Notes under the pieces: model-generated
Told to the model about the DNA's origin: nothing
What the model saw: the letters and a program-made list of their open reading frames with translations, nothing else
Databases searched by the model: none
Translations under genes and position numbers: made by a program
Shown: one piece after another, positions 4,760 to 9,930 of the stretch
Position numbering within the stretch: the first letter of the stretch is position 1
Layout: the number at the start of each line of letters is the position of its first letter
Assembly (NCBI GenBank): GCA_029881895.1
Contig: JAOULS010000001.1
Coordinates: 1-64,000, forward strand
Length of the DNA stretch: 64,000 nt
DNA from: Cyclobacteriaceae bacterium
GTDB taxonomy: Bacteria > Bacteroidota > Bacteroidia > Cytophagales > Cyclobacteriaceae
Direction: 5' to 3'

Positions 4760-5632
4760 ATGAAAAAAATAAGATACTGGATTATACAATTAATGGGGGT
4801 TTCAAAAACTGAAGCTAATGGCGTGATATTTTTATTTATATTTCTGTTTCTCATCATAATTGCCCCCTATTATATAAGCACTACAAATAACTACACCTAT
4901 TCAGCAAAAGACAGCCTACTTCTCGATTCAATGTTGGTCTTGATAAAAACCAACAAGCCCACTATTAAAAAAAAGAAAACCTATCGTACAATAAATAAAG
5001 TATCACCTGAATATTTTGACCCTAATAATGCACCCATTGATCAGCTAATTTCTATTGGCTTTTCGAAGAAACAAGCTCAAAACATATCTAATTACAGAAA
5101 TAAAGGTGGTCAGTTTAAAATAAAAAAAGATTTGCTAAAAATATATAGCGTTGATTCTTCCTTTTATTTGAGGGTGGCTCCATTTATAAAACTCCCAGAC
5201 AAAATTAACTTAACCAAAAAAAAAGAACTAGTAGCCTTCAACATCAATACCGCAGACACCATCGATTTTATGAAAATACATGGAATAGGAACTATAATCT
5301 CTAAAAGAATCGTAAAATTCAGAGATAATATAGGTGGTTTTATAAATATTAATCAACTAGATGAAGTTTATGGTATAGAGATAGGACCACTTACTAAACT
5401 AAAATCTCTTGGTTATATTACTGCTAAGGACAGTATCAAACGAATCAATATTAATTCGGCTGATTATTCTACTTTAATCAAACATGTATACATCAATAAA
5501 AAAACGGCTAACGCTATCATTCAATACAGAAATCAACATTCTAATTATCAAAAAGTGGACGATTTAAAAAAAATACACCTTATATCTAATTCGTTGTTTG
5601 AAAAATTAGAGCCTTACCTCACCATTGAATGA
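4760..5632 (+). CDS. Membrane-anchored helix-hairpin-helix protein (ComEA-like)
   Basis: 290 residues. An N-terminal GVSKTEANGVIFLF segment with one transmembrane helix (about residues 22-42) is followed by three helix-hairpin-helix units of the ComEA type: DPNNAPIDQLISIGFSKKQA, NINTADTIDFMKIHGIGTII and NINSADYSTLIKHVYINKKT. Such HhH units bind DNA without sequence specificity; ComEA is the DNA receptor in natural uptake. The protein may hold DNA at the envelope, but no other competence gene is in the window. It is followed 81 bases later by a large helicase on the same strand, so the two could be co-transcribed. Confidence 0.85.
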   Translation: MKKIRYWIIQLMGVSKTEANGVIFLFIFLFLIIIAPYYISTTNNYTYSAKDSLLLDSMLVLIKTNKPTIKKKKTYRTINKVSPEYFDPNNAPIDQLISIGFSKKQAQNISNYRNKGGQFKIKKDLLKIYSVDSSFYLRVAPFIKLPDKINLTKKKELVAFNINTADTIDFMKIHGIGTIISKRIVKFRDNIGGFININQLDEVYGIEIGPLTKLKSLGYITAKDSIKRININSADYSTLIKHVYINKKTANAIIQYRNQHSNYQKVDDLKKIHLISNSLFEKLEPYLTIE

Positions 5633-5713: not shown

Positions 5714-8700
5714 ATGATTAATATTCTCAAGTCATATCTAAAACGGCTCACCAACCTGACTGGGAATAATCGGTCACTGCTATTACTAAGGCTATCTACT
5801 AGTCAATTTATTGATATAAATGAATTAAATTTCCTTAATACCAAACCTTCATTTTCAATTATCGAGGATTTGATTGCTCGCAAGAAAAAAATTCCTCTTT
5901 GTCCGGATATTGACCCAAGGGATAAAAACAATAACCAAACGAGCAAAAAATTACGAAAAATTGATAGAATGGATAAGTTTTTATTCGAAGAAAGAGGTAG
6001 TAAAGACTTATATGTAGGTTGGCCTTTTATAAAGGGCCAATTTATGGATGGCACATCGGTAAGAGCTCCTCTCCTATTTTTTCCTATACAACTAAAGTTG
6101 GAGAATGGTAAATGGGCAATTTACTCAAGAGACGAAGTGGGCATATCTTTTAATAAGTCATTTTTACTTGCATATGCTTTTTACAATAATGTAAAAATTA
6201 CAGATGATTTTATTGAAAAAATTATTGAAGACTTTGATACAGATAGCACGGTATTTAGAACTACATTGTATCAGGAATTAAAAGAAAGTCCTATTGAACT
6301 CAATTTCAACCAAAGCATATTCGAAAATAAACTTCAAAATTTCGAGCAATACACAAAAAAAGATTTTGAAAATGCTCAGAACACAGGGGAATTAAAATTA
6401 TACCCCGAAGCTGTACTAGGTATATTTCCACAATCTGGTTCACACTTAGTGCCCGATTACACTTATTTAATTGAAGAAAAAACTCCTGAAAGCATGGAGT
6501 CATTTTTCGAATCACGTTCATCGCACCTTACAGAAGATCACAATACTGTTTTTCCTGGGCTAAACTTTATTAAAAGAGTAAAAGAAGAAAACATTATCAC
6601 TCCATTTAAAATGGATGCCTTTCAAGAAAATGCGCTAAAGGCTGTAAAAGAGGGTAATTCACTCGTTATACAAGGGCCACCTGGCACTGGGAAATCACAA
6701 CTTATATGTAACCTCATTAGCGACTTTATTTCATCAGGAAAAAAGGTGTTAGTGGTTTCTCAAAAACGAGCAGCACTTGATGTGGTGTATGCTAGAATGA
6801 AAGAAAATAACGCTGAAAGTTTTGTTGGGATTGTTCATGATTTTAAAAATGACAGAAAAAAAATATATGAAAAAATAGCGAATCAAATCCATCGATTAGA
6901 TGAGTATAAAATTAAAAATAGCAGCCTAGATTCAATTCATTTAGAACGAAATTTCACCCATAACTGTAGAATTATAGATCATATTACGGAAGAAATGGAA
7001 GAGTTCAAACAGGTTTTATTTGATGAGTCGGAATGTGGCATATCAATAAAAGAGCTTTACCTTACTTCGAACTTAAATGAACCTTCAGTAAATTTAAAGC
7101 AAGAATATAGGTCTTTTCATTTTAATAATTTGAACACCTTTATTAATAAACTAGAGCTTTACGATACATACGCTCAAAAATTCAATAAATACGACCACCC
7201 ATTTTACAATCGTAAATCATTCAAAGGTCATACAATACATGACCTTTCGGAAATGAAAAATATGATTAAAGAGATGCCTATATATCAAACCGAAGTAAGT
7301 GATAATATTGAAAAATTACTTGGATATGGATTTAGTATTGAGGAAGCTGATCCTTTTAATAATAAAGTAGAGTTGATAAAAGAAATGCTAGGGATATTGA
7401 AAAATCCTGAAATATACACACATTTTCAGCATATGCAGCCTTACTCTGATAATGAGACTGATCTACTATGGCTCACCAATACTGAGCGTGTATTAATGCA
7501 ATGCTATCATGGAGTTGGCCCAGAGTTAAGCTTAAATGATGATGAGCTTGGGAAATTTCAAGAAACACTTCAACGTAATATGGAGGCTAGAAAAGGATTG
7601 CTAAAACTCGTAAAATGGCAGCTATTTTCTAAAGACAAATACTTTATTAAGCGTGTTTTAGTAGCCAACGATCTACGAAAAAACAAAGCAGGTTTTAAAA
7701 TTATGGTCGAAAAAATTGACAATCGACTTAATTTAGCTCATAATCTCACAAAATTAAAAAGACAACCGTGGCTTGATGACATCCCTGCAAATTTAAGTAA
7801 AGTCCATTTGCAAAACTGGTTTCATGTGCAGCGACTTGCCCTTAAATCTAAGCTCATATTTAATTCGATAAGGAATTTCAAAGATTACTTTAACATCCAA
7901 AAGCTAACGTATATTGAACTTCAACAAAAATTAAATGCTTTATATGTAATTATAAAAGACATCCCTGAAAAAAAACTGCAATGGTCTAAATACTATAGTG
8001 AACATCAAATAAAACACATACTAGAGGGGGGTAATTTTGAAGTAAAAGTAGCAAAAGCGTTACAGAAAGACTTTGATGCCTTATGTGAGTATGATAACTT
8101 ACTAAATTCACTTACCTCTGACGAATCGAAAGTAATCGAAAAAATTTATGAAAATGTTGAACAACATGATAGAGATTCACTAATAAAATTATTTGGAAAT
8201 AGCATAAGGCTTGCATGGATCGATCATATTGAGACCAAATTTCCTATTCTTCGAATCGTGTCTTCATCAAAATTTCAGAAGATGGAAAAAGAATTACAAG
8301 ATGCGGTAAAGGACAAATTACTAGCGAGCAATGATATTCTTTTATTGAAGGCTAGAGAAAGAACTTATGAAAATTTGGAATACAACAGGCTCAATAACAG
8401 AGTGACATATCGTGATTTGAATCATCAGGTTACTAAAAAACGTAAAATATGGCCTTTACGAAAACTTATCTCAGAGTTAAAACATGAACTTTTTGATTTA
8501 GTCCCCGTGTGGTTAGCATCACCCGAATCTGCTTCTGCCATTTTTCCAATGGAGCAATTCTTCGATTTAGTGATTTTTGATGAAGCCTCACAATGTTTTA
8601 CAGAAAAAGGAATTCCATCAATATATAGAGGAAAACAAATTGTAATAGCAGGAGACAATAAACAGTTGAGACCAAACGATTTATATAAAATTAGATACGA

Positions 8701-9736
8701 AGATGAAAATGAAGAGGGACTAGAATTAGAAGTTGACTCATTGTTAGAGTTAGCTGAAAAATACCTAATGCAAGTTCAATTAAAAGGTCACTATAGAAGT
8801 AAGTCTCTTGAGTTAATTGATTTTTCTAACACCCATTTTTACGGAGGGAAATTACGATTATTACCCAATAGAGAAGACGTAAATTCACAATCTCCAGCCA
8901 TTCGTTTTTTGAAAGTAGATGGAATATGGGAAAACAACACAAATAGAGTAGAAGCCGAAAAAGTGTGTGAAATACTTATTGAAACCATACAGTTACACCC
9001 TAATAAGGGAATAGGAGTAGTCACGTTTAATGCTTTACAGCAAAACTTGATTACTGATATTTTTGAAGAAAAAATGATATTGAAAAAATTATCTATACCA
9101 AGTTCGGTATTTATAAAAAACATTGAGAACATCCAAGGAGATGAAAAGGACATCATTATCTTTTCTACTGCCTACGCCCCTGACACAAGTGGAAGGTTGA
9201 TGATGCAATTTGGAAGTCTAAATATGGAGAATGGTGAAAACCGATTGAATGTAGCTATCACTAGAGCTAGAGAGAAAGTCATTATCGTCACCAGTATTTT
9301 TCCTCAACAATTAAAAGTAGAAACCAGCAAAAATGTAGGACCTAAATTGCTAAAAGAATATCTTAGTTATGCACTAGATGTAAGTGAAGGAAGGTATATT
9401 CCAACAAAACACACCGATGAGGAACATAACAATAGTTGGTACCTAAAAGCACAACTTCAAAATTGGAGTGACTGGCTTGAGAACATAGAATTTACTGATG
9501 AACTTCCATTTTCAGATATTACCATCAAGGAAAATAATACATATCTAGGTTTAATCATCACAGACGACAACTTATATTATCAGAGCGTTTCGATGAAAGA
9601 CACTCATGCTTATACTCCCTTTACGCTGAGTAGTAAGAAATGGAGATTCAAAGGAATATTTAGCAGGGAATATTGGGTAGACCGTGAAGGCGTACATGAA
9701 TCCATCAATAGATTTATTAACAATTCTAGGGAATAA
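5714..9736 (+). CDS. DUF4011-type superfamily 1 helicase with a Vsr-like C-terminal segment
   Basis: 1340 residues. The N-terminal part (about 1-190; LKRLTNLTGNNRSLLLLRLS, then GWPFIKG and RAPLLFFPI) resembles DUF4011. The Upf1-like SF1 motor has Walker A GPPGTGKS at 321-328, Walker B IFDEASQC near 954-961, motif III AGDNKQLRP after it, and motif VI NVAITRAREK near 1179-1188; a long helical insert lies between Walker A and B. Residues about 1277-1330 (YLGLIITDD, YYQSVSMKD, GIFSREYW) follow the pattern of Vsr/MTES_1575 nucleases but with weak catalytic positions. Helicases with this architecture occur in DNA repair and phage-defence settings; here it sits alone after the HhH gene with no defence neighbours. 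Confidence 0.87.
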   Translation: MINILKSYLKRLTNLTGNNRSLLLLRLSTSQFIDINELNFLNTKPSFSIIEDLIARKKKIPLCPDIDPRDKNNNQTSKKLRKIDRMDKFLFEERGSKDLYVGWPFIKGQFMDGTSVRAPLLFFPIQLKLENGKWAIYSRDEVGISFNKSFLLAYAFYNNVKITDDFIEKIIEDFDTDSTVFRTTLYQELKESPIELNFNQSIFENKLQNFEQYTKKDFENAQNTGELKLYPEAVLGIFPQSGSHLVPDYTYLIEEKTPESMESFFESRSSHLTEDHNTVFPGLNFIKRVKEENIITPFKMDAFQENALKAVKEGNSLVIQGPPGTGKSQLICNLISDFISSGKKVLVVSQKRAALDVVYARMKENNAESFVGIVHDFKNDRKKIYEKIANQIHRLDEYKIKNSSLDSIHLERNFTHNCRIIDHITEEMEEFKQVLFDESECGISIKELYLTSNLNEPSVNLKQEYRSFHFNNLNTFINKLELYDTYAQKFNKYDHPFYNRKSFKGHTIHDLSEMKNMIKEMPIYQTEVSDNIEKLLGYGFSIEEADPFNNKVELIKEMLGILKNPEIYTHFQHMQPYSDNETDLLWLTNTERVLMQCYHGVGPELSLNDDELGKFQETLQRNMEARKGLLKLVKWQLFSKDKYFIKRVLVANDLRKNKAGFKIMVEKIDNRLNLAHNLTKLKRQPWLDDIPANLSKVHLQNWFHVQRLALKSKLIFNSIRNFKDYFNIQKLTYIELQQKLNALYVIIKDIPEKKLQWSKYYSEHQIKHILEGGNFEVKVAKALQKDFDALCEYDNLLNSLTSDESKVIEKIYENVEQHDRDSLIKLFGNSIRLAWIDHIETKFPILRIVSSSKFQKMEKELQDAVKDKLLASNDILLLKARERTYENLEYNRLNNRVTYRDLNHQVTKKRKIWPLRKLISELKHELFDLVPVWLASPESASAIFPMEQFFDLVIFDEASQCFTEKGIPSIYRGKQIVIAGDNKQLRPNDLYKIRYEDENEEGLELEVDSLLELAEKYLMQVQLKGHYRSKSLELIDFSNTHFYGGKLRLLPNREDVNSQSPAIRFLKVDGIWENNTNRVEAEKVCEILIETIQLHPNKGIGVVTFNALQQNLITDIFEEKMILKKLSIPSSVFIKNIENIQGDEKDIIIFSTAYAPDTSGRLMMQFGSLNMENGENRLNVAITRAREKVIIVTSIFPQQLKVETSKNVGPKLLKEYLSYALDVSEGRYIPTKHTDEEHNNSWYLKAQLQNWSDWLENIEFTDELPFSDITIKENNTYLGLIITDDNLYYQSVSMKDTHAYTPFTLSSKKWRFKGIFSREYWVDREGVHESINRFINNSRE

Positions 9737-9898: not shown

Positions 9899-9930
9899 AA
9901 AAGGGTCGTCTTAATAAAGACGACCCTTTT
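9899..9930. terminator. Bidirectional intrinsic terminator
   Basis: A perfect 14-bp stem (aaaagggtcgtctt at 9899-9912, aagacgaccctttt at 9917-9930) with a 4-base loop lies between the convergent helicase and FecR-like genes, with A/T runs on both sides. It should stop transcription from both directions. A smaller hairpin, cccttt/aaaggg at 9826-9840, precedes it in the same gap. Confidence 0.85.

Follow-up and report, generated by a model that had tools for sequence, protein, structure and literature searches.

A predicted UPF1-like helicase of the Cytophagales whose Vsr-like C-terminal domain has lost the canonical nuclease site across the order

The gene described here raises the question of what a nuclease domain becomes when it stays joined to a helicase motor after its canonical catalytic residues have disappeared. 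The gene lies in the first 64,000 nucleotides of contig JAOULS010000001.1 (assembly GCA_029881895.1) from a Cyclobacteriaceae bacterium, hereafter referred to as the window, and encodes a predicted superfamily 1 (SF1) helicase of 1340 amino acids that begins with ATG. A previous sequence-only reading of the window proposed that the protein ends in a decayed nuclease segment of the Vsr/MTES_1575 type. Our analysis indicates, from profile comparison and modelling, that a nuclease-type domain of the Vsr-like (MTES_1575) kind makes up the last ~100 residues, and that, in the aligned sequences, the canonical active site is gone from the whole clade, with an equally fixed one in its place. The features of the helicase gene are as follows.

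5714..9736, plus strand: DUF4011/UPF1-like SF1 helicase with a C-terminal Vsr-like domain (open reading frame list of the window; Pfam AAA_11, AAA_12 and DUF4011; single copy)
5924..6160, plus strand: DUF4011 match, residues 71-149 (PF13195, 35.5 bits versus a cut-off of 22.2, profile positions 72-153 of 158)
6674..6697, plus strand: motif I, GPPGTGKS, residues 321-328 (K327 in 94/94 orthologues)
6854..8368, plus strand: predicted insertion, entirely helical, separating RecA1 from motif II, about residues 381-885 (DSSP of the predicted model, model residues 101-605)
8579..8593, plus strand: motif II, DEASQ, residues 956-960 (D956 and E957 in 94/94 orthologues)
9239..9271, plus strand: motif VI, NRLNVAITRAR, residues 1176-1186 (R1184 in 94/94 orthologues)
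9434..9733, plus strand: Vsr/MTES_1575-like domain with a rewritten active site, residues 1241-1340 (hhalign, predicted model and VIA-align)

The homology of the tail to MTES_1575 was recognized mainly by profile-profile comparison. When the tails of 94 orthologues were aligned with 19 MTES_1575-type tails using hhalign, an E-value of 7.2e-12 was obtained, versus 0.46 for a reversed-target control, and the domain was found in every one of the 94 alignable Cytophagales orthologues (a set that omits four loci running off contigs, L026, L035, L051 and L052, and 20 copy loci from the same genomes). An AlphaFold model of residues 1195-1340 (pLDDT 90.4, pTM 0.74) presents the elements in the order helix, helix, three strands, helix, strand and helices, which is the nuclease topology. 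Re-alignment of 289 chains to this model with VIA-align placed I-Bth0305I (3r3p), a Vsr-type homing nuclease, at the top (Z 10.7 over 92 residues, 2.6 A), followed by the DUF559-like NGO0050 (3hrl; Z 9.9); the chains that come next, at Z <=7.7, are Bax1, Holliday-junction resolvases and mitoribosomal proteins, the last of which we take to be RAP proteins. The nuclease-type fold that had been suggested for the tail is thus supported by both profile comparison and structure prediction, and the resemblance noticed at residues 1277-1330 goes beyond chance; the domain itself is longer, extending from about residue 1241 to 1340. The Pfam MTES_1575 profile (PF18741) matches the tail below its gathering threshold (15.1 versus 38.2 bits, residues 1268-1334), as it does in the orthologue at locus L122 (22.1 versus 38.2 bits). 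A sequence-profile search of the PDB with the tail gave no credible match, and the viral Foldseek list for the tail contains many DUF559, VSR and homing nucleases, none of them significant. No true Vsr gene was found in the 90%-complete assembly.

Residues of the domain were compared in a 184-row alignment comprising 119 rows from Cytophagales and 65 others, after removal of two identical duplicates and of 10 rows in which the DEASQ regular expression had no match. Thirty-eight of the other rows retain D1268, E1282 and D1284 (numbering of the window protein) and are referred to here as intact relatives. The residues of the site in the window are given below.

9515..9517, plus strand: D1268, the retained acid of the nuclease motif (D in 116/119 Cytophagales rows and 38/38 intact relatives)
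9557..9568, plus strand: I1282-T-D-D1285, in which E1282 is lost (T in 114/119, D in 117/119 and D in 116/119 Cytophagales rows at 1283, 1284 and 1285; E at 1282 in 0/119 versus 38/38 intact relatives)
9596..9598, plus strand: K1295, a near-invariant basic residue (K in 108 and R in 10 of 119 Cytophagales rows)

The typical text of the intact relatives reads RIDLAV...LGIECDGAxYHSS..A+ERD...GW..RIWS, whereas that of the Cytophagales rows reads FADLT...GLxLTDDxxYYxSxSxKxxHAYxP...K.W...YSRxYW. At position 1282, L is present in 82 Cytophagales rows and a single row has D, in a sequence that lacks D1268; the three acids (D1268, E or D at 1282, and D1284) therefore never occur together in Cytophagales (0/119 rows, versus 38/65 of the others), by which the canonical site is lost clade-wide. 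Loss of the catalytic residues, as the sequence-only reading had proposed, is thus borne out, and a set of intact acids elsewhere in the tail was likewise not seen in any of these rows. Other positions have also changed: a basic residue (K or R) replaces E1245 in 90 of the 119 rows, C1283 has become T and G1285 has become D, position 1289 is Y or F in 86 rows and H in 17, D is absent from position 1298 in all rows (H in 84), and Q1302 is P in 106. Position 1295, R or K in the relatives, remains basic. The tail shares the order of its elements with MTES_1575, but differs from it in the loss of E1245, E1282, D1298 and usually H1289, and in the replacement of G1285 by D. Near-invariant residues of the Cytophagales tails are D1268, T1283, D1284, D1285, K1295, W1310, S1317 and R1318. 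The motif map drawn earlier for the tail holds except at one point, where it is two residues off: the D of its SxSxxD is D1296, while it is H1298 that occupies the place of the conserved D of RD.

The altered tail is under purifying selection. The ratio of nonsynonymous to synonymous substitution rates (dN/dS) in the tail was 0.065-0.20 in seven of ten pairs; the other three pairs are saturated, including that of the window protein (tail pN 0.072, pS 0.93). In a tree built from the helicase part only (108 rows: 43 of the 119 Cytophagales rows and all 65 others), the 43 sampled Cytophagales fall on one side of a branch with an SH-aLRT value of 100; the fork that they share with Bacillus forms, in which the site is intact, and with a mixed group of Clostridia and archaea is not resolved. 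Towards the distant outgroups, this tree has numerous poorly supported forks and four long rows. The state of the site changes 11 times across the tree, and 27 of the 65 non-Cytophagales rows lack at least one of the three acids. Therefore, loss of the canonical site is not special to Cytophagales; on the alignment, what distinguishes this order is the fixation of the loss together with a new signature. The site was probably rewritten once, in the ancestor of the group, and then preserved under purifying selection. Row-by-row erosion of the site was considered and dropped in light of the orthologue alignment, the dN/dS values and the residue counts. That the tail is a functionless, decaying remnant, as could be suggested by the missing catalytic acids and the sub-threshold Pfam match, is scarcely tenable: none of the 94 orthologues lacks the domain, which is constrained, has invariant residues of its own and displays one shared state in one clade. 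These results refute decay for the clade as a whole. The term "decayed" used in the sequence-only reading is therefore better replaced by "rewritten once and conserved".

The same domain has been altered elsewhere. A long relative from the same class (L078), which has a WGR domain at its C-terminus, reads H-M-D-D-H-Y at the site, representing another independent change. In a group of 15 short DUF4011-type helicases from Clostridia (L179, L183, L185-L193, L195, L196, L201 and L205), the motif D is replaced by S or P, so that D1268 is lost while E1282 and the ExD acids are kept, a rewriting separate from that in Cytophagales. Another long relative (L066) carries a GreA/GreB C-terminal domain beyond the nuclease domain.

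The motor to which the tail is joined appears to be intact. AAA_11, AAA_12 and DUF4011, the last over approximately half of its profile, matched above their Pfam cut-offs, and few if any of the 94 orthologues deviate from intact motifs I, II and VI, which lie at the positions that had been read from the letters. The predicted model of residues 281-1340 (pLDDT 88, pTM 0.72) matched SETX, UPF1, Sen1, IGHMBP2 and Dna2 with Foldseek E-values of about 1e-10, and a second structural alignment with VIA placed UPF1, IGHMBP2, SETX and other SF1 helicases on top (Z about 20). With its intact motifs and UPF1-like core fold, as modelled, the protein is a UPF1-like SF1 helicase. It shares the core with the SF1B helicases UPF1, SETX/Sen1, IGHMBP2 and Dna2 but adds the large all-helical insertion and the C-terminal nuclease-like domain. 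The usual translocation polarity of UPF1-type SF1 helicases is 5'-to-3', and the fold class suggests that the Cytophagales helicase probably moves in this direction as well.

The helicase gene is near-core in this group and mostly vertically inherited. Taking E <= 1e-60 as an orthologue-grade match and counting by hand from the match tables, we found the gene in 35 of 37 genomes of its own family, in 49 of the 59 related genomes and, order-wide, in 123 of 194; across the phylum, matches were found in 8 of 198 genomes, all eight inside the order. In the 2.85-Mb assembly, the open reading frame matches only itself. Over the stretch compared, the proteins of two loci from genomes of the family are identical to those of Catalimonadaceae JC749 and Roseivirga UBA6052, in keeping with a place in the Cytophagales and probably in the GTDB family Cyclobacteriaceae. 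The gene tree (FastTree, with long-branch warnings) required 19 changes of family code, compared with a minimum of 12 and a shuffled mean of 45. The genes around the helicase in the window, as named from their translations, include those for glutamyl-tRNA reductase, the MeaB GTPase and peptide release factor 2 and similar genes, and a scan of ten genes near the helicase, taken from eight further Cytophagales loci, gave ordinary domains for eight and none for two. The housekeeping character earlier ascribed to the neighbourhood is thus supported.

The curated families closest to the protein are ProA (NF058533, 2e-142), Hhe (NF042953, 4e-89) and the PADLOC candidate PDC-S37 (PDLC05009, 4e-134). 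The ProA and Hhe scores lie far below the NCBIfam cut-offs (476.5 versus 1500 bits and 299.7 versus 2000 bits, respectively); PDC-S37, for which no curated cut-off is given, scored 447 bits over residues 273-1339, spanning helicase and tail. All three resemble the Cytophagales protein in having a split SF1 helicase followed by a Vsr-like C-terminus, and their matches span both parts; the Cytophagales protein differs in being shorter (1340 amino acids versus profiles of 1550-1911), near-core and vertically inherited, and in its rewritten nuclease site. The nearest relatives outside the order are short Bacillota forms, such as those of Bacillus sp. B15-48 and Cytobacillus gottheilii, which are similar in length and about 37% identical but keep the canonical site (IECDGAMYHSS...KERD). 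Among these Bacillus-type short forms (L174-L176, L180 and L182), in which the nuclease is intact, the two that were compared with PDC-S37 (L174 and L176) scored 706-730 bits. They lie among metabolic genes, with no defence gene seen among the neighbours scanned; a scan of ten genes beside short Bacillota forms, drawn from six loci, gave ordinary domains for nine and none for one. Our literature searches (open-licence papers) on DUF4011, MTES_1575, Hhe/ProA, Vsr and inactive nucleases listed no paper devoted to the Cytophagales helicase family.

The explanation towards which we lean is that the protein is a UPF1/Dna2-like helicase whose Vsr domain is nuclease-dead and has been reused to bind or guide nucleic acid in chromosomal upkeep. 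The protein would comprise an N-terminal DUF4011 region, an SF1 motor with a large helical insertion and a Vsr-like domain whose forebear was an active nuclease of the MTES_1575 type. In the common ancestor of these Cytophagales proteins, E1245, E1282 and D1298 would have been lost, D1268 and D1284 kept, and T1283-D1285 and K1295 fixed, after which the domain would have been retained by purifying selection as a non-cutting module. While the motor moves on DNA or RNA, this module may grip or steer the strand leaving the motor, or sense a DNA or RNA end, and the helicase would thus remodel nucleic acid for ordinary chromosomal upkeep rather than within a mobile defence island. A parallel is RecC, in which a nuclease-like domain without catalytic features is reported to form a hoop for single-stranded DNA (PMC1185551); there too, a catalytically bare nuclease fold on a helicase machine is reused to guide DNA, although the RecC domain is of the RecB-type rather than the Vsr-type fold lineage and belongs to a three-protein complex. 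The RAP domain of FASTKD4 is Vsr-like, as is the helicase tail, but it belongs to a eukaryotic mitochondrial protein without a helicase; its Vsr-like cavity is reported to bind RNA and not to cut it, and mutation of the putative catalytic D left target stability unchanged (PMC11879112). A chromosomal DUF4011 gene also has a precedent in Pseudomonas aeruginosa, where such a gene flanks a defence hotspot and is reported from all isolates (PMC10250203). Several observations weigh against our explanation. A metal could still be bound, since both D1268 and D1284 are retained and position 1295 is basic. With the tail model, Foldseek found nothing in the PDB or among viral structures at E <0.001, so the fold call is drawn from the second look of the aligner and the profile homology. 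Every named curated relative is an anti-phage protein. Finally, the gene has been lost, in part or whole, in several families (codes f13, f15 and f22) and in small genomes, and hence is common rather than essential.

The first of these observations could also be read as a sign that the tail continues to cut, through a rewired site. The metal would then be held by D1268, D1284/D1285 and K1295, and the protein would make up for the lack of E1282 as does Escherichia coli Vsr. The latter has F-T-H where MTES_1575 has E-x-D, and thus no acid there. The residues in question are kept in 116 (D1268), 117 (D1284), 116 (D1285) and 118 (K/R1295) of the 119 rows, and such an all-polar set would be needless in a purely structural domain; D51 and H69 are, moreover, named as the Vsr active-site pair in the FASTKD4 paper (PMC11879112). 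However, by motif count, Vsr H69 corresponds to position 1289, which is seldom H in Cytophagales, the helix acid E1245 is mostly replaced by a basic residue, position 1298 is never D, and the comparable FASTKD4 remnant, with its D kept, is reported to have given no sign of nuclease activity. We consider continued cleavage of this kind unlikely, though a serious alternative. That the protein still acts against phages as do Hhe, ProA and PDC-S37, without cutting DNA, is suggested by its being matched best by these three families and would not contradict a dead nuclease; it appears unlikely, if by no means far-fetched, given the scores far below the curated cut-offs, the presence of the gene in nearly all genomes of its own family, its largely vertical inheritance and its ordinary neighbours. 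We regard it as a tentative possibility that a defence-type helicase armed with a nuclease became part of the near-core gene set of Cytophagales and that, in the ancestor of the group, its nuclease domain was converted in a single event to a new site for catalysis or sensing (D1268, T1283-D1284-D1285 and K1295), which would make the protein a bacterial counterpart of RecC or FASTKD4 in upkeep. The family offers one traceable case in which a nuclease joined to a motor has lost its canonical site and is still selected for, with the intact Bacillus forms serving as a comparison. If the helicase is a housekeeping one, bacteria of an order common in the environment possess a large motor for nucleic acids that has no paper of its own among those we found. 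Annotation libraries match it to anti-phage families alone, which could mislead counts of defence genes.

Two further features flank the helicase gene.

4760..5632, plus strand: membrane-type helix-hairpin-helix (HhH) protein upstream of the helicase, not an obligate partner (HHH_3, E 9e-42; adjacency and distribution)
9899..9930, plus strand: terminator-like 14-bp stem between convergent genes (consensus scan; such sites are no more numerous than in shuffles)

The HhH gene is on the same strand as the helicase gene and separated from it by 81 bp, an arrangement that would fit a single unit for DNA uptake or membrane-bound DNA processing. Conservation of the pair, which had been put forward as a check, is partial: the HhH gene lies directly upstream of the helicase in 32 of 94 loci, and in 23 of the 35 helicase-bearing genomes of its own family versus none of 14 in the other families of that sample (read by hand from two tables). 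Elsewhere, the upstream gene encodes a short-chain dehydrogenase or a TerC-type protein, as named by reading the sequences, and a ComEA-like HhH protein is present in 58 of 59 related genomes, including those without the helicase. The idea of an obligate pair was dropped on this ground, and a joint unit appears improbable; the HhH gene is an often-linked core gene whose position beside the helicase is kept mainly in its own family, not a required partner. On the other side of the helicase gene, the stem has 14 pairs and a T-rich end and lies before a convergent minus-strand gene, and it likely serves as a two-way terminator.

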